The position numbers and the translations under genes were made by a program. Shown here piece after piece: positions 11,719 through 21,484 of a DNA stretch of 64,000 nt. This DNA is from Bacteroidales bacterium (GTDB lineage Bacteria > Bacteroidota > Bacteroidia > Bacteroidales > UBA1402): positions 744,001 to 808,000 of the forward strand of contig JAJFTH010000003.1 of the NCBI GenBank assembly GCA_021373135.1, read 5' to 3'. Below the pieces are notes generated by a model that saw nothing but the letters and a program-made list of their open reading frames with translations, made no database searches and was not told the origin of the DNA. Positions within the stretch are counted from its first letter, which is position 1, and each line of letters begins with the position of its first letter.

Positions 11719-11792
11719 GGCGAGATAGCTCAGCTGGTTAGAGCGCATGATTCATAATCATGAGGTCCCCGGTTCAATCCCGGGTCTCGCTA
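11719..11792 (+). tRNA. tRNA-Met(CAU), integration site
   Basis: All four arms pair: acceptor GGCGAGA/TCTCGCT (first pair a G-U wobble), D stem GCTC/GAGC, anticodon stem CATGA/TCATG with loop TTCATAA, T stem CCCGG/CCGGG. Discriminator A; CCA is not encoded. The anticodon is CAU; the stem set suits elongator Met, though a lysidine-modified Ile tRNA cannot be fully excluded. Its 3' two thirds are repeated at 21,436, marking an integrated element. Confidence 0.95.
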
Positions 11793-11793
11793 C
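11745..11793 (+). repeat. attL: 49-bp tRNA-Met repeat
   Basis: Bases 11,745-11,793 are identical to 21,436-21,484, from the anticodon stem to one base past the discriminator. Flanking bases differ at both ends, so 49 bp is the exact extent. The complete tRNA is kept on this side. Confidence 0.95.
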
Positions 11794-11805
11794 TTATTAA
11801 CAGTC

Positions 11806-11840
11806 AGGCACTTATGATGCAAGCTCATAAGTGCCTTTTT
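11806..11840 (+). terminator. Rho-independent terminator after tRNA-Met
   Basis: AGGCACTTATGA (11,806-11,817) pairs perfectly with TCATAAGTGCCT (11,825-11,836) around a 7-nt loop, followed by TTTT CTTT. It lies inside the element, 13 bp past the tRNA, so the element supplies the terminator for the host tRNA. Confidence 0.85.
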
Positions 11841-11846
11841 CTTTGT

Positions 11847-11870
11847 GGTGAAATCAGGGTGAAATCACAG
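11847..11870 (+). repeat. Left arm-type repeat (tandem GGTGAAATCA)
   Basis: Two GGTGAAATCA units at 11,847-11,856 and 11,858-11,867, one base apart, followed by CAG. The same 24-bp arrangement with one mismatch occurs at 21,293-21,316 in the same orientation. Position just inside each end suggests integrase or excisionase arm-binding sites. Confidence 0.6.
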
Positions 11871-12167
11871 TTCGGGTAATGAGGCTTTTTGTGCAGACTC
11901 TTGCCATGTATTTTGCCACTTATCTATAGCCGCCATATACTTCTATTAACATTACACTTTTGTTATATTCTGACAATTTAAGATCAAACTGGCAAGACTT
12001 TAGAAAAACCAGCCTAAAATATTCCAAAAACCCCTTTACACTTCTGTAATTCCCTGCATTTTTCAGTCCAGACTCAGAACAATGCGTTCCATAATGGAAA
12101 AAAACAACCATGCACAGCATCACTATTGCAAACTCTTTTTATCGAACGCATTAAAAAGAGGGAGTTC
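11871..12167. other. Left-end region without a confident gene
   Basis: The stretch holds only short readings. One minus-strand frame (11,936-11,865) encodes a 23-aa peptide starting MAAIDKWQNTW; it may be a remnant or a microprotein. CTCTTTTT (12,133-12,140) pairs with AAAAAGAG (12,153-12,160), a possible weak terminator just past the small membrane-protein gene. Confidence 0.4.
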
Positions 12168-12347
12168 CTACTTATCATTGTCCCGGTCGTTTTTCCAAAT
12201 CTTTACTATTAGCCAAATGTAGGCGGCTATTATTCCACAAACTGAAATAAAAATGAGAATATGCCCTGCCGTTTCGTTATTTAAAGCCAAAAAGAAAAGG
12301 CTAAAATATGCCACAATAGATAAAATTATTATTTTAGACTTTTTCAT
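12168..12347 (-). CDS. Small two-helix membrane protein
   Basis: 59 aa from the ATG at 12,347 (a GTG one codon upstream is possible). Two hydrophobic segments (about residues 6-22 and 29-47) are joined by a short loop and followed by a charged tail (KIWKNDRDNDK). Size and topology fit a holin-like or immunity-type membrane protein, but there is no family match I recognise. It lies 24 bp after the 114-aa gene in the same direction. Confidence 0.5.
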   Translation of the reverse strand: MKKSKIIILSIVAYFSLFFLALNNETAGHILIFISVCGIIAAYIWLIVKIWKNDRDNDK

Positions 12348-12371
12348 CACGTCATTACTATACTTTTATAG

Positions 12372-12716
12372 TTATTTTGTTTTATTGCAAAATATGGATA
12401 TTGGTGGCGTTCTCAGGTCATATCTGTTAAAATAGATTATGGTGTCTTTTTTGTTGATTTGGCTTGCAACTACTATACCATCAAAAGTTTCTACTTCATT
12501 TTTCACAGTAATATCATCGCATTGTAAAATTTTAATATTTCTCGATGGAATTAATATTTCATATTCTGAAATAATTCTGGGTGTGGTAGATAAATAGCAC
12601 ACACATTCTGATTCAAGAATTATTTCTGTTTTAAAGTCAGGCATTGCATTTGTGCCAGTTTGAGTTCCTCTTTTTACAGTTAAGTGATGTGGAAATTTGT
12701 GATTTGATTTTGCCAT
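12372..12716 (-). CDS. Hypothetical protein, possibly phage head-closure-like
   Basis: 114 aa, no signal peptide, no membrane segment. The start KFPHHLTVKRGTQTG, the middle ISEYEILIPSR...DDITVKN and the end FDGIVVASQINKKDTIIYFNRYD follow the pattern of small phage head-tail connector proteins (PH-x-ITV, a 'YxVxLP' strand, a 'GDxIxV' turn, then a terminal strand). The resemblance is by pattern only and weak. If correct it would be the one structural protein in the element. It is followed by the small membrane protein. Confidence 0.45.
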   Translation of the reverse strand: MAKSNHKFPHHLTVKRGTQTGTNAMPDFKTEIILESECVCYLSTTPRIISEYEILIPSRNIKILQCDDITVKNEVETFDGIVVASQINKKDTIIYFNRYDLRTPPISIFCNKTK

Positions 12717-12869
12717 GATTTTAGGATTAAAAATAATTAATAAAAGAAAATAGAATTATAGTCTCTTTTTTCTAATTTTTATAAAAAATCAACAATCAGT
12801 TGGAAATGAGAAATCGCAATAATGTATTTTTCAGAGAACAAGAATCCAACCAAATCAGATGCAATTTAA

Positions 12870-12926
12870 TAACAGGGGGCACGCCCCTAAGACCAGAAAA
12901 CAGCTTGGCAGGGAATCGCATTCCAA
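12870..12926. other. GC-rich hairpin island in an AT-rich gap
   Basis: The 244-bp gap 12,717-12,960 is very AT-rich except here. AGGGG (12,874-12,878) and CCCCT (12,884-12,888) form a hairpin, and GGAAT-CGC-ATTCC (12,912-12,924) forms a second. Such islands in mobile elements can be transfer origins, packaging sites or small RNAs. Nothing here decides which. Confidence 0.4.
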
Positions 12927-12960
12927 CATTTTTTTTATTTTATTAACCATAAACGAGCAA

Positions 12961-13773
12961 CTAATATTTAACATCATATTTACGATTGGTGTGTTCCCAA
13001 AACAAATAATGAAAGAGCCTATTTGAATAAAGACTATCTCTTTTCGTTAGAGTGGGTTTTAGAGCTTCGTATGTCGATCCTATTTCTTCAGTATATTTAT
13101 TTAATTGAACATTTGTGATTACTCCATTTGTCTTTAAACGTAAATATTTATATGAATTCCGACATGAAGATTCAAGAATTTTAATTTTTTCAAAATCATC
13201 TATAATACTTTTTTCTTTTGATAACGATACAATATAAAACTGAAAATTGAGAATATTATGAGGATGAACATCAAAACTATCAGGATTATAAATAAAGTTA
13301 TTTTTAATATCTCTTAGCATAAATCCGTCAAAATAAACAGTATCGCCTATTTCTAATTGCTTGAGTTGGTTATAAATATATGAAGAGTCTACTTCTTTTT
13401 TTGAATAAATATCCTCTTCATGGTTAAAAGATATGTTACAATTTCCCTTAAGTCCTAATTCGATATTTACTTTTAAAAGAATATGACCATCAGGGCTTTC
13501 TACCGGTATTTCGATACTTGATATTACTCCTCTCCAATTGTGGAATAATCTGCATGAATCAACAATGTTTTTTAGACTTTTATCATATTGATCAAGAGCA
13601 TCTTTTGCTTTGACTTCATTTTCATTGAAAATCAAATAGTAATTGTTGTTTATGTAACTTATCATTCGCTCTTCCTGAGGCTCAAGAATTAGAACTTCCT
13701 TTTTTTGTTTAATAGAATTACACGCAATAAACAAAAAAACAATTGAAATTACCACAAGTGAAGTTTTTTTCAT
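12961..13773 (-). CDS. Putative lipoprotein, unknown function
   Basis: 270 aa. The N-terminus MKKTSLVVISIVFLFIACNS is a lipoprotein signal with the acylated Cys at 18, so the protein should be membrane-anchored, probably at the outer membrane. The mature part is Asn/Lys/Asp-rich with no motif I recognise; LEIGDTVYFDGFMLRD suggests an OB-like beta turn. Codon use is AT-rich like the rest of the element. It is cargo rather than core machinery. Separate from its neighbours by about 130 bp and 240 bp. Confidence 0.72.
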   Translation of the reverse strand: MKKTSLVVISIVFLFIACNSIKQKKEVLILEPQEERMISYINNNYYLIFNENEVKAKDALDQYDKSLKNIVDSCRLFHNWRGVISSIEIPVESPDGHILLKVNIELGLKGNCNISFNHEEDIYSKKEVDSSYIYNQLKQLEIGDTVYFDGFMLRDIKNNFIYNPDSFDVHPHNILNFQFYIVSLSKEKSIIDDFEKIKILESSCRNSYKYLRLKTNGVITNVQLNKYTEEIGSTYEALKPTLTKRDSLYSNRLFHYLFWEHTNRKYDVKY

Positions 13774-13902
13774 AGCATTTACTTTTTACAATATATAATA
13801 AAAATAAACCACTTGCCACTTGCAGACATATTCCAAACAAAAAGTCAAGTAACATTCTTAAGTGATTAATTGTTAAATGTTTGTATAGTTTATAACACCT
13901 AT

Positions 13903-14379
13903 TTAAAAACTATTTGATAGAGTTTTAATAGCCTGTCCCGGATTAAGGCTTGTAATTGTGTTTTTCACCATGGTTTCTCCATCAATAGTAATAAGAGTAT
14001 TTTTTCCAGCGGTGAGATAAAATACCGATACTGCATATTTCCTTACATTTGAAGACAAATCATAATAATTGGATTCAGGGGGTAACATTTTGAATGAAAA
14101 TTTCACCTTGACAATATCGCTTGTAACTTCGATTTTTTTCGACAATCCGCCGCCAGAAGAAACTGGGTCTAAATTATCCGTCCTGACAACCTCATCGCTA
14201 CTATTGTAACAAAATACGACAATTTCGTATAAGCTACCGTTTAAATAAGTATCGAACGAAGTCGTTAAAATATCTGTGTTGTTTACAATTTGGTAAGTAG
14301 TTGGAGTCTCTTCTACCTTTGAGCAACCGCATAATAATGTTAAAACAATGGCAAGATTTAATAGTAACTTCGTTTTCAT
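13903..14379 (-). CDS. Putative lipoprotein, unknown function
   Basis: 158 aa. Signal MKTKLLLNLAIVLTLLCGC places the lipid Cys at residue 19. The mature part (about 140 aa) looks all-beta: YQIVNNTDILTTSFDTYLNGSLYEIVVFCYNSS and KYAVSVFYLTAGKNTLITIDGETMV, similar in style to immunoglobulin-like or transthyretin-like surface domains. No specific family is recognised. It lies 84 bp downstream of the LRR protein gene on the same strand and may be co-transcribed with it. Confidence 0.72.
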   Translation of the reverse strand: MKTKLLLNLAIVLTLLCGCSKVEETPTTYQIVNNTDILTTSFDTYLNGSLYEIVVFCYNSSDEVVRTDNLDPVSSGGGLSKKIEVTSDIVKVKFSFKMLPPESNYYDLSSNVRKYAVSVFYLTAGKNTLITIDGETMVKNTITSLNPGQAIKTLSNSF

Positions 14380-14463
14380 GATTAATATGTATTTAGATTT
14401 TATATAATGTCTCGAGTAAATTGGGCTTTTAAATTGCTTCTTATTTTTTACTTATTTTCATAT

Positions 14464-15570
14464 TCACCTCTTTACTATTTTTATTTTGTGCACACTATTT
14501 CCTGAGGTTAATATTGCAATATAAACGCCCTTAGGGAGTATTCCCACTGATACATATTCGTTTGCAGTGATTTGCTTTGTGAGTAATATTTTACCGCCAA
14601 AATCCGTTAATGTTAGATTACTCGTCGCTTCCAAACCATCAATATAGAAACCATCTGTCACAGGATTTGGATAAAGATTTATAACATTTTTTTTCATATT
14701 GATTATACCGGTGACTGGTAATTGTCCTTCAATAAAAATAATAAAATCACCCCAACCAGGGGCAACTTCGTAAGCACTTTTTGAGCCTGTAGGGAGATAC
14801 AAGGAACAAGTGCGTGTATCAACAGAGCCAAAAACACCAGAGCCTAAGACTACCGGAGTAATTGCATATACATATATAGAAGTAAGTTCATCGCAAAGTC
14901 CAAAAGCATAATCTCCTATTGAAGTAACAGAATTGCCAATGGATAAGCTGACAAGACTACTGCAACCAGAAAAAGCATAAATACCTATTGACGTAACAGA
15001 ATTGGGAATGGTTAAGCTAGTAAGTCCTGTGCAATTCCAAAAAGCGTAATTTCCTATTGAAGTAACAGAATTGCCAATGGATAAGCTGACAAGTCCACTG
15101 CAAAACTCAAAAGCATCACTTCCTATTGTAGTAACCGAATTGGGAATGGTTACGCTTGAAAGTTTCATGCATTCAAAGAAAGCCATATTACCTATTGAAA
15201 GTAGGGTGGTTGGCAGTTTAATAGACGTTAATTTAGTGTTACTTGCGCCCCAGTTTTTATGAAATGAATACTCGGGCATTTCAAATGGTGGATAATTTGT
15301 AGAGGTAGATGTCCCCAGTGTTCCAATATACGGCATAATAATTGTCGAACTAATATCCAAAACGGAAAGATTACTTATTTGGTCTCGGATGCATTTTATA
15401 TCTCTTGCATCAATAAAGCCCGTTACTGTTAAATTTGTGATTGTGCTTTTTTCAGATGACGTTAGCTGTGTACTTAATCCTCCAGCAGAAACATTAACCG
15501 TTTTAGATACCTGAGCATTCAAAAAGAATGCAAATAATAGGCTTGTGGTAAGCAAAAATATTTTTTTCAT
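14464..15570 (-). CDS. BspA-type leucine-rich repeat protein with T9SS sorting domain
   Basis: 368 aa. Signal peptide 1-19 (MKKIFLLTTSLLFAFFLNAQ). Residues about 110-235 hold 23-aa LRR_5 repeats of the form SLSIGNSVTSIGxYAFxxC, visible in DNA as imperfect 69-bp repeats (about 14,905-15,190). The C-terminal 75 residues (NLYPNPVTDGFYIDG ... GVYIAILTSGNS ... KIKIVKR) are a type A type IX secretion sorting domain. The protein should be exported and attached to the host surface; BspA relatives bind fibronectin, fibrinogen or other bacteria. It is carried by the mobile element but depends on the host's secretion system. Confidence 0.9.
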   Translation of the reverse strand: MKKIFLLTTSLLFAFFLNAQVSKTVNVSAGGLSTQLTSSEKSTITNLTVTGFIDARDIKCIRDQISNLSVLDISSTIIMPYIGTLGTSTSTNYPPFEMPEYSFHKNWGASNTKLTSIKLPTTLLSIGNMAFFECMKLSSVTIPNSVTTIGSDAFEFCSGLVSLSIGNSVTSIGNYAFWNCTGLTSLTIPNSVTSIGIYAFSGCSSLVSLSIGNSVTSIGDYAFGLCDELTSIYVYAITPVVLGSGVFGSVDTRTCSLYLPTGSKSAYEVAPGWGDFIIFIEGQLPVTGIINMKKNVINLYPNPVTDGFYIDGLEATSNLTLTDFGGKILLTKQITANEYVSVGILPKGVYIAILTSGNSVHKIKIVKR

Positions 15571-15607
15571 GGTTATATATTTAGGTTGGATCTATTTGTG
15601 TCAATCT

Positions 15608-15817
15608 TTAAAAATCTGGATGTTCTTTCGCATGATCTTCTATTGCGCTAAGGTCGTCTCGTTGCTCCTTGCTTACTTGATACTGTACCTGTTATCCGTT
15701 ACCCTCTTTCTTGGAATATTCACCATAACTTTCAGAAGAGGTTTTGCCACCACAACTATATAAGCAAGAAATGGTAAATATAACAATATTAAAATACATA
15801 TTCCTTTTCATCTCCAT
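15608..15817 (-). pseudogene. Short lipoprotein gene with an in-frame stop
   Basis: Reading from ATG 15,817 (or 15,811): signal MKRNMYFNIVIFTISCLYSC with lipobox-like LYSC, then a hydrophilic tail to TAA at 15,694-15,692 (41 aa). The same frame then stays open for 27 more polar codons to TAA at 15,608. Either the product is a 41-aa lipopeptide or a 69-aa gene has been broken by one nonsense change. It is divergent from the XRE gene and faces the shared operators. Confidence 0.5.
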
Positions 15818-15844
15818 AAGTTTTGTAGCTTATTAAATTTGAAA

Positions 15845-15906
15845 TATCATTTGTGATAACCAGACTACAAATGTATAACTATTTCTTTGTTATCAATAAT
15901 GATAAC
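15845..15906. promoter_or_regulatory. Two TATCA-N4-TGATA operators between divergent genes
   Basis: TATCA-TTTG-TGATA at 15,845-15,858 and TATCA-ATAA-TGATA inside GTTATCAATAATGATAAC at 15,889-15,906. The two sites share half-sites and spacer length and lie 46 bp apart; the second ends 8 bp before the XRE start codon. This is the layout of a repressor that controls itself and a divergent gene. Confidence 0.7.
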
Positions 15907-15914
15907 GATAGAAA

Positions 15915-16136
15915 ATGAATGAAATCCAGTTATATATAAAAGTTGGGCATAAGATTAGGAAAGTAAGGGAAGGGGAAAATATATCCCAGCAGGAATTAGC
16001 TGACAGGTGCAATTTTGAAAAATCTAATATGTCGAGAATTGAAGCAGGAAGAACAAATTTAACTTTAAAAACTTTATACACCATTAGCAAAGCCTTGTCT
16101 ATTCCAATAAAAGATTTTTTTAATTTTGAAGAATAG
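15915..16136 (+). CDS. XRE-family transcriptional regulator
   Basis: 73 aa, a single Cro/CI-type helix-turn-helix: IRKVREGENISQQELADRCNFEKSNMSRIEAGRTNLTLKTLYTISKALSIP, with recognition helix around residues 33-45. There is no C-terminal cleavage or oligomerisation domain. It is the only plus-strand gene in the element and faces a pair of matching palindromes, so it is probably an autoregulated repressor controlling the leftward cargo genes. Confidence 0.88.
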   Translation: MNEIQLYIKVGHKIRKVREGENISQQELADRCNFEKSNMSRIEAGRTNLTLKTLYTISKALSIPIKDFFNFEE

Positions 16137-16270
16137 CTTAACTACATGGGAAAGGCAATTTATGACATGGTGTCAGTACTATCTCTTTCTTGGTTTATAT
16201 TTAATATTGTCAGAGGGTTAGTTCTGAAATCTAAATTGTCAGTAAATTCCCGCCTTTTTTGCCATTTATG

Positions 16271-16540
16271 TTAATAATACTTCCAGGCTAGGGGGTTGGT
16301 ATAGGGGTAGTCTATAAACTGATTTTTTAGCGCTCGTATATAATTAGCCACACGCCAGTCATTGAAAAATAGGCTGACCTTCGGAGGCAGAGATGAGGCC
16401 GAGCAACGAGGTTTATATATAGTTTCATAACTTTTTTTCTGAGTAAATCCACAGAAAAACCACAGAAACACAACGCACCGATCTCTTTCTGGCAGTGTCT
16501 CACATTTGAATTTCGACGGGTTTTCTAATTTCTTTGTCAT
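16271..16540 (-). CDS. Terminase small subunit-like DNA-binding protein
   Basis: 89 aa. The stretch KKSYETIYKPRCSASSLPPKVSLFFNDWRVANYIRALK follows the small-terminase pattern of Y-x-x-A/I, SA, a sector of small residues, then 'F-x-x-x-x-V-x-x-YI-x-x-L' (split here at 20 residues or fewer: SYETIYKPRCSASS; FFNDWRVANYIRALK). The preceding LPERDRCVVFLWFFCG would be the first helix of the HTH. In phages such proteins recognise the packaging site; phage-inducible islands carry their own copy to divert packaging. It begins 45 bp after the primase stop on the same strand. The assignment is by pattern and needs a profile search. Confidence 0.5.
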   Translation of the reverse strand: MTKKLENPSKFKCETLPERDRCVVFLWFFCGFTQKKSYETIYKPRCSASSLPPKVSLFFNDWRVANYIRALKNQFIDYPYTNPLAWKYY

Positions 16541-16585
16541 AAATTTTTAGTTTAATATGTTTTAAGAAGGCAAGACTTGAATGGG

Positions 16586-17704
16586 TTAAGTCTTGCCCTC
16601 TTTTTTACTTGTAGTAAATTTATAGTCTGATTTAATAAACCTGTCTCGTCCCTGTAAAATCCAATTCAGAATCCCTGAGTATTCCTTCTCCATTTTAATA
16701 TGGAGTTGCTTGTCTTGATCCTCTTCGGCAATAGTGATGTCAAAGGAGACAATAATCAACCTCATAGAAAAGCCATAGGTTGAATCTACGGTTACGGGAA
16801 GCTCATTTGAGATACATATCATTACGGGAATGTCTGCTGCCTCAAACGGTCTACCATAAATCCTACGTGCAAGAGTTGGCTCCCCGCTTACAATGGTTTT
16901 AGATCTGGAACTTGAAAATTCTTTTTTCCCCGCATCGGAGCAATAATTTAGTAGCTTGCCATCACATTCGGCCAAAGCATACATACCCTCTGATGTAGTT
17001 GAGGCTAAATGAGATATGTCAAAATTTGTCACGTTTTGTCTGCCCAAAATTCCGCATATCGTTTCGTAAACTACACTCTTACCGTTAGCCCCACCACCAT
17101 ATAAATATAGTATCTTTTCTAATTTGGTTGTGTGTCGGTTTATAAATATGCAGCCTAAATACTCCTGTAATACCATACGGGATTCAACATCAGGCAAGAC
17201 TTGATTCAGGAAAGACATCCATAGCGGACACTCAGCCCCCTTGTCGTAATTATACGGAAGTCCATAGGTGCAATCCAAGTCAGGACTTAATTTCAAAGTC
17301 TTTCCTGATTCGACATCAAGAGCACAGTTTTTAAAAGATATTATTGCTCGCTTTGGGTTAAGGGATTTATGTTGTATCCTTCTCTTGGTCATCTGTATAA
17401 GCCTGGATTCTCTTTTGAAAATATCAGCAGGAGTTAACCCCATTCCACGGACTAGTATTTCCGCTGCGGTGTCCATCTCCTTTTCGCCAAGTTCCACCCA
17501 AAATCCAGATTCCGGATTCCACCAGAAATCAACGCCCTTGTGGGTTGCGAGATTAGATTCAGATACTGCGGATTCTATTAACAACCCTATAGCCCCACAT
17601 CGATCATCTTTATCCCTAATAGCCAGAGCCTTAGCCATTAGTGCCGCCGGAATATGACCGGATATTTCTTCTGCTATTTTTTTTGGTCTATCCGTCATAT
17701 TCAT
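16586..17704 (-). CDS. P4/D5-type SF3 helicase of a primase
   Basis: 372 aa. The N-terminal part (about 40-150) fits the D5_N/primase-associated domain: WWNPESGFWVELGE. The helicase domain has Walker A GGGANGKS near 203-210, followed by SEGMYALAECDGKLLNYCSDAGKKEF (motif B and sensor region) and ICISNELPV (motif C). It is shorter than P4 alpha and lacks a visible primase catalytic domain, so it probably unwinds the origin. It lies downstream of repA with 223 bp between that hold nested repeats. Confidence 0.85.
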   Translation of the reverse strand: MNMTDRPKKIAEEISGHIPAALMAKALAIRDKDDRCGAIGLLIESAVSESNLATHKGVDFWWNPESGFWVELGEKEMDTAAEILVRGMGLTPADIFKRESRLIQMTKRRIQHKSLNPKRAIISFKNCALDVESGKTLKLSPDLDCTYGLPYNYDKGAECPLWMSFLNQVLPDVESRMVLQEYLGCIFINRHTTKLEKILYLYGGGANGKSVVYETICGILGRQNVTNFDISHLASTTSEGMYALAECDGKLLNYCSDAGKKEFSSSRSKTIVSGEPTLARRIYGRPFEAADIPVMICISNELPVTVDSTYGFSMRLIIVSFDITIAEEDQDKQLHIKMEKEYSGILNWILQGRDRFIKSDYKFTTSKKEGKT

Positions 17705-17865
17705 GGCTCTAATTCTTTTCTGACTTCATTAGATGTAATAAGCTTTAATTCAAAGTTTTGCATAATTATATGTTTTAAGTTGTTTGCAAAATCGTGTGAA
17801 CAACGACCTTTTTTCAAAGATAACAATTATTGTTATTAATTAGTAACCTTGCTTTTTATCTCTAC

Positions 17866-17981
17866 TTCGGTACTTTGGTACTTTGGTAAAGGTATATCTC
17901 AGATATACCGTACCGAAGCAGCCCCGTTTAGTTTGGTTCGGTATTTACCGAACTACCGAACTGATTACCGAACTGATTACC
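17866..17981. repeat. TTCGGTA/TACCGAA cluster, candidate replication origin
   Basis: The heptamer TTCGGTA occurs six times in either orientation: 17,866, 17,911, 17,937, 17,946, 17,954 and 17,966. TTCGGTA-TT-TACCGAA (17,937-17,952) is a palindrome, GGTATATC-TCA-GATATACC (17,891-17,909) is a perfect hairpin nested inside TTCGGTAC/GTACCGAA (17,866-17,917), and GGTACTTT is repeated in tandem at 17,869-17,885. Half of the cluster lies in the 3' end of repA, encoding GNQFGNQFG. Confidence 0.6.
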
Positions 17982-19160
17982 ATAGTCAAACGGAATGGAT
18001 GAATCGCCCTGGATCATACTATATAAGGTTAAGTTGGAATGTTTTACCTCTGCTTTAACCCAACCCTTTTGCTGATAAAAAGTCGGAAAATCCCTTGAAG
18101 GCTTATCTGACACATCAAATTTGGTCTGAACAAGATGCTCGAACTGATTTCTGGAAAATTTGCAGCCAAAAGGCTTGAAAATTTCCTTCAAGAATTCCTT
18201 ATGGATGCTGTCATCATAGGATTGAGGAACCTTTGGAACCTTAGCACAAGTCTTGCCACTTATAAGTTTATCAAAGTCCACCCTGTTGCCTGTATCAGAG
18301 AAGCAAAAGTTTTCATCCATTTTAAGGACATACGAGGAAGTTTTGGCTTCGGCAGGCAAGTAGTTACCTTTTACAATGCAAAGATGCCTCTGACTGGGGT
18401 TGATTTTATCCTGACGAAGTTCGATTACCAAACGGGCTTTAGCTTCAATACCCTGAGATCCGATTGAATTGTTTTTAGATGGTGCTAAATCTTCAGTACG
18501 TTTTCCAGTGTGGTGTAAAAAACAAACCGAACATTTATGTCTTACAGCCAACTGACTATATTGGTTAAGAAATGGACGAACCTGACTGTTTTGGTTTAGG
18601 TCTTTATCATTAAATACATCTCCAAGCGAATCCACTATGACCAAATCTGCGGGATTTGCAGTTAGAGCCTCATCAAGGGTATTTACAAGGTCAGATGTAT
18701 CGAAAATGAACTGGATATTTTCAGCTTCTTCCTGTGTCATCAACATTGTGTCATTCTGTTTATTTAAAAGGAAAGCAATAGCCATTTCATCATCCTCGGA
18801 AGATACAACAAGACATCTCTTGTGTTTGCCATTATAAGCATGGTTAAGGAATGGTTTTCCACAAGCCACACTCATACCCATTTGACGCAAAAGCATTGAT
18901 TTTCCAGTGTCAGAAGCTCCTACAAGCATACTTATGCCAACCATAGGAATCAGTTTATCAAAAAGCATCGGTATTTCGGACACTTTTAGATTCAGTAAAT
19001 CTTTACCTGAGTAAAGTTTAGAATTTGACGAACAAATATTTTTTTTAATGTTAAAATCGCTTGTGGATGTAATAATATCAATTACCTTTGTCGAAGCTGT
19101 TAAGGATGCGACATTTGGAAATGTTGAGATAGGATTTTGTGGAAAATTTGTCTCTAACAT
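17928..19160 (-). CDS. RepA-type RecA-fold replicative ATPase (AAA_25)
   Basis: 410 aa from the ATG at 19,160, which shares its A with the TGA of the upstream gene (a TTG one codon earlier is possible). Walker A GASDTGKS and Walker B LVIVDSLGDVF are clear; FLHHTGK and the 'SSEDDE' strand belong to the hexameric helicase family related to plasmid RSF1010 RepA. The C-terminal 130 residues are specific to this element and end in a GNQFGNQFG repeat made by the origin-like DNA. It probably unwinds or loads at the adjacent origin with the SF3 helicase. Confidence 0.85.
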   Translation of the reverse strand: MLETNFPQNPISTFPNVASLTASTKVIDIITSTSDFNIKKNICSSNSKLYSGKDLLNLKVSEIPMLFDKLIPMVGISMLVGASDTGKSMLLRQMGMSVACGKPFLNHAYNGKHKRCLVVSSEDDEMAIAFLLNKQNDTMLMTQEEAENIQFIFDTSDLVNTLDEALTANPADLVIVDSLGDVFNDKDLNQNSQVRPFLNQYSQLAVRHKCSVCFLHHTGKRTEDLAPSKNNSIGSQGIEAKARLVIELRQDKINPSQRHLCIVKGNYLPAEAKTSSYVLKMDENFCFSDTGNRVDFDKLISGKTCAKVPKVPQSYDDSIHKEFLKEIFKPFGCKFSRNQFEHLVQTKFDVSDKPSRDFPTFYQQKGWVKAEVKHSNLTLYSMIQGDSSIPFDYGNQFGNQFGSSVNTEPN

Positions 19161-19465
19161 CAATTAATCTCCTTATATTTTAATGATTTGGTTACTTCGT
19201 CTGAAAATGCAAACAGTTTGCCACCTGTAAAGTAAACTGGGAAAATGTTTTTATTACGAAGTTTTTGAGCCGTAGATGGTGCGATGCCAAGATACGATGC
19301 TATTCCTCTGATTCCTTTAAGTTTAATTCTTTCTTGGGTTTGAGTTTCTTGTTGAGGCTGTTGATATTGTGATTGTAGTTTCTTTGAAACTGCATCTGCA
19401 AGGGTATCAATGAAGTAGTTCAGCATTTCTGACGGATTAAAATCCTTTTGGTAGGTATTTGTCAT
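19160..19465 (-). CDS. Small HTH protein, DUF3853-like
   Basis: 101 aa. A Gln-rich linker (QQPQQETQTQ) separates an N-terminal helix from a winged-HTH of the excisionase/MerR type: GIRGIASYLGIAPSTAQKLRNKNIFPVYFTGGKLFAF. The family is common in Bacteroidota integrated elements directly before repA. Probable role is regulation, excision or loading. Its stop overlaps the repA start (TGATG), and its own start overlaps the previous gene by 4 bp, so the three are translationally coupled. Confidence 0.8.
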   Translation of the reverse strand: MTNTYQKDFNPSEMLNYFIDTLADAVSKKLQSQYQQPQQETQTQERIKLKGIRGIASYLGIAPSTAQKLRNKNIFPVYFTGGKLFAFSDEVTKSLKYKEIN

Positions 19466-19704
19466 TCTTCAGGGATATTTAGTCCAAGTCGTTTTCTGAC
19501 TAATTCAATGTCAAAAATTAACTTTCTACCAGTTCCTGGTTGCATGTAACAACCAGAAAGTTTTTCATTTTTGATTTTTTGTCCAGTCGGATGACTGACT
19601 CTCAAAAATGCGCATAAGCCTGATAATCCATAGATATACCGATTTGAGATAAGTAAACCCTGCGAGGCGCATTCATTAAAATTAATAATTTCTTTTTCCA
19701 TCAT
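19462..19704 (-). CDS. Small HTH protein, DUF3853-like
   Basis: 80 aa, homologous in layout to the next gene: YGLSGLCAFLRVSHPTGQKIKNEKLSGCYMQPGTGRKLIFDI is a winged-HTH with the turn at S-H-P-T-G. The two probably arose by duplication. It is the first gene of the replication operon and stands 41 bp from an exact two-box promoter. Candidate excisionase or repressor of the operon; sequence does not tell which. Confidence 0.8.
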   Translation of the reverse strand: MMEKEIINFNECASQGLLISNRYIYGLSGLCAFLRVSHPTGQKIKNEKLSGCYMQPGTGRKLIFDIELVRKRLGLNIPEE

Positions 19705-19744
19705 TTTTTTTAGATTAAACTATAGACGTATTAACTAATATTAA

Positions 19745-19775
19745 CAAAGATAGTTAAAAAATGTGAATATGCAAA
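19745..19775 (-). promoter_or_regulatory. Promoter of the element's replication operon
   Basis: On the minus strand TTTG (19,775-19,772), a 19-nt spacer and TATCTTTG (19,752-19,745) match the Bacteroides promoter exactly. It reads into the HTH-HTH-repA-primase genes. Confidence 0.8.
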
Positions 19776-19949
19776 ACTTTTTGAGAGAAAAATTCATTAA
19801 AAAGAGAAATTAATTTACATGACAAAAAATCTTTTGTTAATATTTGACGGTTTTAGGGGCTTTGATTATAGCATATATTTTTTCACAAATAAGCCCCAAT
19901 TGTTAGTCGAGGCTTAAAAAAAATCAAATAGGGGAGAACTTGCCTTCTT

Positions 19950-21278
19950 TTATTTAGGAGTGGCAAGAAGCAAGGAATTAAATTTGAAAATTTCTTCACG
20001 TGAGAAGTCCCCGATATACCCGCCTGTTACATTTTTTGTAGTGTGTCCCATAGCTTGTGATATGTATTTCTCAGGTACTAATTTGGAGTGAGCGAGGTTT
20101 GTGGCAAAGGAATGACGCGCCCAAGTCATTGAGATTTTGACGGGTAGTTCTAAACTTTTGCAAACAACCTCCAAGCGATCTTTTATATTGCTGTTTTCTT
20201 GTGAGATGAGTTTTTTTATTTTAACCTCGTCTTTTTCATTGCCTAAAATTTTAGGAAAAACCCGCTTTCCCTCTTCGGGTTTAGCTGCATATTTCTTTAA
20301 TATTTTATTCAGTTCTGGGTTAATGGGGATTATAACCTCAATATCTTCGTCGGTAGTGGCAGCGGTCTTTTTGCGTATAAATTTAAGCTCAGTCTCGCCA
20401 CTTTCAAAGTAGTGCTTATTATAGATCAATAAGGCCATATCAGCAAGGTTGAGGCCGTTACCAAGATAACTGAACATCCAGTAATTAATCGCTTCGTGTT
20501 TGGCCGCTTTGGTTGCTTTTGACCAATTTTCAGGTGCGGTAAAGTTCAATAGTTTTTTGATGGTTGGAATATCAATGTGTTCATCTCTTCGGCTCTTGCC
20601 CTTTTGAATGACGATTTTATTCTTGTCGCCTCTTTTTTTATCTTTTCCAAATGGGTATTGAGTCGCCTTGATGTACCCCTCCTGAATACATTCATTGATT
20701 GCAACTCGGCAGGCTCTCATATATATGCCTGTTGTGGTATTGCTTAACCCGTCTGCTTTCATCTTGTCAATCCATTTCTGAATTAAGGGTGTGTCAATAC
20801 GGTTAAAAGCGATATTGGTGCCTAAATACTTTGTAAATGAGTTTAGTGCGCCTGTATAACTATTTGCGGTTCCGATTCTGTCTTCTTTTATAAGGCTGTT
20901 GATTATTCCCTGCCAAACGTCTGAAAAATTACCCTTACTCTTGCCTGTCAATTCTAATTTTAGTTTTTCCAAGGTGAACTCGTCTTTACCCTGAAGCTTT
21001 AGTATGGATGTCTTTACCTTATTATATATGGCAAGCTGCATTTCTTTTTCCTTGTATAATTCCCCGCCTCTATTTGTTCCTTTTCCAGTCGCCTTAGAAA
21101 GTTTATCCCATCCATCAGGAATAGTACATCTAAATCCGGTGCGATAGTATATAGTTCTTCTGTTTTGATTGATGCGAACTGCAACTGGAAGATTTTCTTC
21201 TCCTTTTCGCGTGTCAAGTGTTAAAGCTATAAATACGGTTTCCAGTTTTTCGGAAATAATCGGAAGGATTGCTTTCAT
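19950..21278 (-). CDS. Tyrosine recombinase (integrase) of the tRNA-Met element
   Basis: 442 aa. N-terminal arm-binding domain (about 10-115), core-binding SAM-like domain (115-215), catalytic domain from about 235. Catalytic residues visible: Lys303/304 (FIRKKT), Arg388 (TWARHSFAT), His412 (MGHTT) and nucleophile Tyr421 (GGYIG). The position normally held by the first Arg is Asn274 (FSYLGNGLNLAD). It lies beside attR, as usual for a tRNA-specific integrase, and one arm-type repeat is 15 bp upstream of its start, so it may repress itself. The 245 bp after its stop contain a GGGGCTT/AAGCCCC repeat and the replication promoter. Confidence 0.95.
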   Translation of the reverse strand: MKAILPIISEKLETVFIALTLDTRKGEENLPVAVRINQNRRTIYYRTGFRCTIPDGWDKLSKATGKGTNRGGELYKEKEMQLAIYNKVKTSILKLQGKDEFTLEKLKLELTGKSKGNFSDVWQGIINSLIKEDRIGTANSYTGALNSFTKYLGTNIAFNRIDTPLIQKWIDKMKADGLSNTTTGIYMRACRVAINECIQEGYIKATQYPFGKDKKRGDKNKIVIQKGKSRRDEHIDIPTIKKLLNFTAPENWSKATKAAKHEAINYWMFSYLGNGLNLADMALLIYNKHYFESGETELKFIRKKTAATTDEDIEVIIPINPELNKILKKYAAKPEEGKRVFPKILGNEKDEVKIKKLISQENSNIKDRLEVVCKSLELPVKISMTWARHSFATNLAHSKLVPEKYISQAMGHTTKNVTGGYIGDFSREEIFKFNSLLLATPK

Positions 21279-21292
21279 CGTTTTATTAGTTT

Positions 21293-21316
21293 GGTGAAAT
21301 CAAGGTGAAATCACAG
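21293..21316 (+). repeat. Right arm-type repeat (tandem GGTGAAATCA)
   Basis: GGTGAAATCA at 21,293-21,302 and 21,304-21,313, then CAG. Matches the left copy with one change in the linker base. It lies between the integrase start and attR. Confidence 0.6.
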
Positions 21317-21435
21317 ATTTATAATGGGATAAAACTACATAAAACAAAACATATATGCAAATGATTAATAATAAATATATTAGAATATTTTAAAGGTGTA
21401 ATTCATTACAGGATATTACAGGATAAAACGGTTCT

Positions 21436-21484
21436 GCATGATTCATAATCATGAGGTCCCCGGTTCAATCCCGGGTCTCGCTAC
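21436..21484 (+). repeat. attR: 49-bp tRNA-Met 3' fragment
   Basis: Identical to 11,745-11,793. It lacks the 5' 26 bases of the tRNA, so it is a fragment and not a second gene. It marks the right end of the element. Confidence 0.95.

Follow-up and report, generated by a model that had tools for sequence, protein, structure and literature searches.

An integrated island at tRNA-Met

We analyzed a window of 64,000 nucleotides from a Bacteroidales draft genome (2.65 Mb, 89% complete). It contains an island of ~9.7 kb (about 11745–21435), integrated at a tRNA-Met gene, with the following features:

11719–11793: tRNA-Met gene (ARAGORN)
11745–11793, plus strand: attachment core, 49 bp of the tRNA-Met 3' part, a perfect direct repeat of 21436–21484
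11846–11870: 25-bp end repeat TGGTGAAATCARGGTGAAATCACAG, just inside the island end, 96% match to 21292–21316
15915–16136, plus strand: XRE/Cro-type regulator, facing the operon (HTH_3, 1.2e-10)
16271–16540, minus strand: 89-aa ATG open reading frame (ORF) with weak codon signal, candidate TerS DNA-binding-domain protein
16564–16602: terminator-like hairpin (15-bp arms, -21.9 kcal/mol, z -7), covering the helicase stop codon
16586–17704, minus strand: D5/DUF5906 primase-helicase (DUF5906 5.4e-12, D5_N 2.7e-7, TIGR01613 3e-33)
17928–19163, minus strand: AAA_25 ATPase of the replication module (PF13481, 2.8e-24)
19160–19465, minus strand: second small DUF3853/HTH_17-like protein (PF12964 0.004, HTH_17 0.008)
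19462–19704, minus strand: small DUF3853-like HTH protein of excisionase/regulator type (PF12964, 1.8e-4)
19950–21278, minus strand: tyrosine integrase (Pfam Phage_int_SAM_5 8.8e-15, Phage_integrase 2e-4)
21292–21316: second copy of the 25-bp end repeat, just inside the other island end
21436–21484, plus strand: second 49-bp copy of the attachment core, a perfect direct repeat of 11745–11793

Along the minus strand, the integrase is followed by the two DUF3853/HTH genes, the AAA_25 ATPase, the D5/DUF5906 helicase and then the 89-aa ORF. The XRE/Cro-type protein is a candidate master regulator of the island, and the 25-bp end repeats are possible arm-binding sites of the integrase. C-terminally, the helicase is ~100 aa shorter than most of its relatives (430–556 aa) and lacks their winged-helix-like domain. 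No TOPRIM/Zn primase gene follows this helicase; the upstream AAA_25 protein may take over, or the module may be decaying.

The remaining island genes are cargo, namely a BspA-type leucine-rich-repeat protein plus small proteins without assignment. The BspA-type gene (14464–15570) contains 69-bp DNA repeats and encodes a Por secretion (type IX) sorting tail. No capsid, portal, large terminase subunit (TerL), lysis or relaxase family scored above the cutoff in the scanned ORFs of the element, where a sub-threshold holin-like match at 12168–12350 was the sole structural or lytic-type signal. Searches for defense and relaxase genes matched only the XRE regulator, by its likeness to defense-linked control proteins.

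A small ORF with weak coding signal behind the helicase

The ORF at 16271–16540 had been predicted to encode a small terminase subunit (TerS) in the same operon as the helicase. Its coordinates, ATG start and minus-strand orientation were confirmed, as was its position 45 bp past the stop of the helicase gene, with which it shares its frame; the letters quoted as a small-terminase pattern (YETI, SAS and FFNDWRVANYIRAL) are likewise present in the translation. A common operon, by contrast, is doubtful and not established, because the hairpin at 16564–16602, which has a T-run on the plus strand and a weaker T-tract on the minus strand, spans the stop codon of the helicase and stands between the two. 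An intergenic-repeat origin of the ORF DNA was rejected, the genome having no second copy.

The main rival to a TerS reading, which we regard as a possible but rather unlikely explanation, is that the ORF is noncoding and arose by chance in the convergent gap between the XRE gene (plus strand) and the helicase (minus strand), with the hairpin acting as a terminator and the TerS likeness being coincidental. Several properties of the locus agree with such an origin. Compared with true gene pieces the codon score falls at the 0.5th percentile, and compared with false ORFs at the 63rd. GC content by codon position is flat, an ORF of equal length arose in 41 of 2,000 shuffles (~2%) of the 449-nt gap and the hairpin follows the helicase. 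Direct searches also provided no family matches: there was no Pfam match up to E 10, none in PHROGs or NCBIfam and nothing above chance in comparisons with PDB sequences, phages, plasmids, viral contigs and 295 genomes of the order. The evidence against a chance ORF comes from a related element elsewhere in the Bacteroidales.

A related element carries a recognizable small terminase in the same slot

Relatives of the helicase were gathered from 393 genomes of the order, and the genes following each were inspected. An element in another Bacteroidales genome, termed L072, has relatives of the island's integrase, HTH protein and helicase, and 329 bp past this helicase it carries a gene for a 92-aa protein. 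By its profile matches, the 92-aa product is recognizably a small terminase of the Terminase_2 type (Pfam Terminase_2 2e-4, with 22.4 bits versus a gathering cutoff of 26.1; PHROG_51 3e-6; PHROG_2606 7e-6), and HHalign gave a probability of 95% in comparison with TerS. A lack of sequence relatives beside TerL genes would have counted against the original prediction. One such relative is linked to the 89-aa ORF at one remove: a relative of the L072 protein in phage record MT835606 is encoded directly before TerL (PF04466, 2e-46), but the 89-aa ORF itself showed no direct match to that phage TerS.

The 89-aa ORF aligned with the L072 protein over 61 residues (BLASTP 3e-5 for the pair). The Smith–Waterman score was 50 (z 6.2), and scores at least as high came from two of 10,000 shuffles but from no host frame (544 compared) or other ORF (2,026 compared). 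The p-values against L072 are partly post hoc, since this element was first spotted by eye. When 4,896 ORFs surrounding 94 helicases were ranked, the L072 protein was also the best match of the ORF; because the E value for that set was only 0.22, the support comes from rank and position and not from E alone. In the reverse search through 78 island reading frames, the 89-aa ORF was by a wide margin the best match of the L072 protein (8.6 versus 1.6 bits). A two-row profile built from both proteins recovered only these two above chance in the 393 genomes, with a suggestive match only in L187, and viral contigs contained no further members of the family.

Comparisons with TerS profiles gave graded results. 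A first profile, from which the satellite TerS set was excluded, scored the ORF at 0.4 bits (p about 0.05; ~5% of shuffles), and this result taken alone would lead us to reject the TerS reading. With a profile excluding L072, 30 of 2,000 shuffles and eight of 544 host frames scored as well as the ORF or better (about the 1.5% level). HHalign against TerS without L072 aligned the ORF over its full length and in register, a further point against coincidental likeness, and placed it above all 200 of 200 shuffles by a narrow margin. Judged from these alignments, the resemblance of the ORF to TerS is beyond chance, but only once the relative L072 was found.

The closest element by integrase (L066, E 5e-166), which belongs to the genus of the window, has a longer helicase and a DUF6371/Zn-ribbon primase, and no TerS-like ORF was detected in it. 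Given this pairing of a very similar integrase with a different helicase and primase and no TerS found, replication and packaging modules appear to be swapped behind a common integrase.

Predicted structure of the 89-aa protein

As a single sequence, the ORF was modeled poorly by AlphaFold (pLDDT 43.5). With nine distant TerS rows supplied as an imposed alignment, and with no decoy control, pLDDT was 75.5 and about 90 in the core, with helices at residues 18–30, 34–45, 51–59 and 62–76. The solved structure closest to this model was the DNA-binding domain of SF6 TerS (Z 7.0, 1.9 Å over 57 residues), a second SF6 TerS DNA-binding-domain match reached Z 6.2 and the best non-TerS structure Z 3.8; many of the named best viral structure matches were TerS as well. 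A TerS-like fold had been proposed as a check of the original prediction. The proximity to SF6 TerS agrees with it, but the single-sequence model does not provide it. Because the TerS alignment was imposed and a decoy was lacking, we count the fold test as weak, nonindependent support for a four-helix HTH domain of the TerS type.

A protein of this kind might instead regulate transcription through a sigma-region-4-like or other HTH (for example, in late-gene or copy control) and have no part in packaging. Foldseek alone found no significant match to the model and had sigma region 4 in its first rows, and weak SigF matches occurred in NCBIfam (E 0.054) and PDB (8jzt, E 0.11). E values near 0.1 are, however, expected by chance in these libraries, the refined structural comparison ranked TerS well ahead (Z 7.0 and 6.2, with no other structure above 3.8) and the slot holds TerS in relatives, which leaves a regulator improbable. 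A displaced or decayed C-terminal domain of the window helicase is highly improbable and largely refuted: the helicase stops about 100 aa short of its relatives, and the ORF falls under the missing domain in a global alignment, but the profile of that domain gave the ORF -1.3 bits, a value reached by 666 of 942 scored shuffles, against 123 bits for a true member.

We consider it probable, if by no means assured, that the 89-aa ORF encodes a minimal TerS-type protein, consisting of the DNA-binding domain only, in the encapsidation slot of a satellite-like island. The predicted TerS identity is supported in part, and indirectly, by the alignment to the Terminase_2-type protein in the equivalent slot of L072, but extends in size to the DNA-binding domain only and is without a Pfam match, the Terminase_2 (PF03592) gathering cutoff not being reached. 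The TerS proteins collected here measure about 143–238 aa versus 89 aa for the ORF, which has no oligomerization or TerL-interaction region.

TerS and DUF5681-like genes near related helicases, with no TerL detected

A genome-wide scan added 80 helicase loci, and 89 distinct Bacteroidota loci were counted. TerS or DUF5681-like genes, always on the helicase strand, were present in 19 of the 89, with a Terminase_2 TerS in five and a DUF5681-like protein in 14 (L060, L062, L063, L070, L110, L126, L140, L141, L143, L151, L154, L163, L168 and L172). The DUF5681-like genes lie 0.4–2.5 kb downstream of the helicase, and the TerS genes of L145 and L147 are located about 3.6 kb upstream. The TerL queries used detected no TerL in the related helicase loci, and a 240 kb host control contained no TerS or DUF5681-like matches. 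The position behind the replication genes is thus recurrently occupied, as in PICIs, by a TerS-type gene for which no TerL partner was detected. The phage matches of the DUF5681-like protein, which are weak (E 0.1–0.3), lie directly upstream of TerL, and this protein may define a TerS family that has gone unrecognized and may serve to mark satellites in Bacteroidota.

Comparison with known satellites and terminases

PICIs are organized as int, regulator and replication genes, followed by encapsidation genes with terS (PMC6092414). As in Gram-positive PICIs and SaPIs, the window island combines an integrase, small regulators, a replication module and then TerS-type and accessory genes, with no capsid or TerL gene found. 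Its integrase, replication and regulator genes (including the XRE regulator) occur in the conserved order, attachment sites flank it (49-bp repeats, tRNA-Met) and phage structural or lytic genes were absent among the element ORFs scanned, the one related signal being the sub-threshold holin-like match. The island differs in its AAA_25 and D5/DUF5906 replication genes, its 89-aa TerS candidate, its Bacteroidales host and its size of 9.7 kb, versus about 12–15 kb for PICIs and SaPIs. In part because of this smaller size, we do not claim PICI membership; the locus is nevertheless ordered like a PICI packaging slot and would work like one.

Rpp of E. coli cos-PICIs pairs with the helper TerS and changes the cos site recognized (PMC6739421). 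Like the 89-aa candidate, it is a small HTH protein that is encoded by a satellite and is similar to the DNA-binding domain of TerS. Rpp, however, measures 144–153 aa and has a winged HTH of the lambda TerS/MerR type with its own dimerization helices (PMC6739421), whereas the 89-aa protein is, as modeled, similar to the SF6/Terminase_2 HTH and too short to accommodate dimerization helices. With Terminase_2 proteins (PF03592; for example, SF6 gp1), the ORF shares a predicted helical HTH pattern and the register of the conserved Y..Y, LL/FF and V..YI positions but, unlike them, has neither a C-terminal oligomerization and TerL-binding region nor a Pfam score.

A further parallel is PICMI of Vibrionaceae (PMC10803314), likewise a minimal island with an integrase, an HTH_17/AlpA-type protein, a DUF5906 primase-helicase and no capsid genes. 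As modeled, PICMI requires AlpA and Fis (PMC10803314), whereas the window island gave no Fis match. The text of the PICMI paper does not mention a terminase gene (PMC10803314).

Proposed role in packaging

A full TerS has about 140–200 aa and comprises an oligomerization and TerL-binding region. As the 89-aa ORF has room for the DNA-binding domain only, its best-supported reading is that of an adaptor of packaging specificity, with a logic comparable to Rpp, rather than a full TerS; we infer its expression, DNA binding, partner, packaging function and helper. Infection by a helper phage would trigger excision of the island through the integrase and HTH proteins, and replication would follow through the AAA_25 ATPase and the D5/DUF5906 helicase. 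The 89-aa protein would then bind a candidate packaging site on the island DNA and couple this DNA to the helper terminase, so that the island would be packed into particles of that phage; it could act in place of the helper TerS or, as its size would favor, pair with it in the manner of Rpp from E. coli PICIs. Searches of the host genome (89% complete) found no Terminase_6 or Terminase_3 large subunit (PF03237, PF04466), so any helper would be external.

Firmicutes and Proteobacteria are the groups whose phage satellites are best characterized, and we found no description of phage satellites in Bacteroidota in the literature searched. It is conceivable, and we propose this tentatively, that Bacteroidota harbor satellites of a broad and so far little-described class with D5/DUF5906 helicases at their core, in which packaging would rely on TerS or a DUF5681-like TerS replacement with no TerL and of which the window would present a bare TerS DNA-binding domain that redirects the helper terminase by Rpp-like pairing. 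If the slot is a packaging module, many integrative islands of Bacteroidota without a known transfer route would qualify as candidate satellites whose packaging gene can be tested. Next to Rpp, a TerS reduced to its DNA-binding domain would provide a second, compact case of specificity hijacking.

A 105-aa protein encoded at L212:776-1093 (= L187:776-1093) shares the pattern ALMMWLGMSKVDAYLTAYP...WIADYLDAL. Its gene is located near rpoB/rpoC at a contig end, without satellite context, and the protein may be another, remote member of the small TerS-like family.
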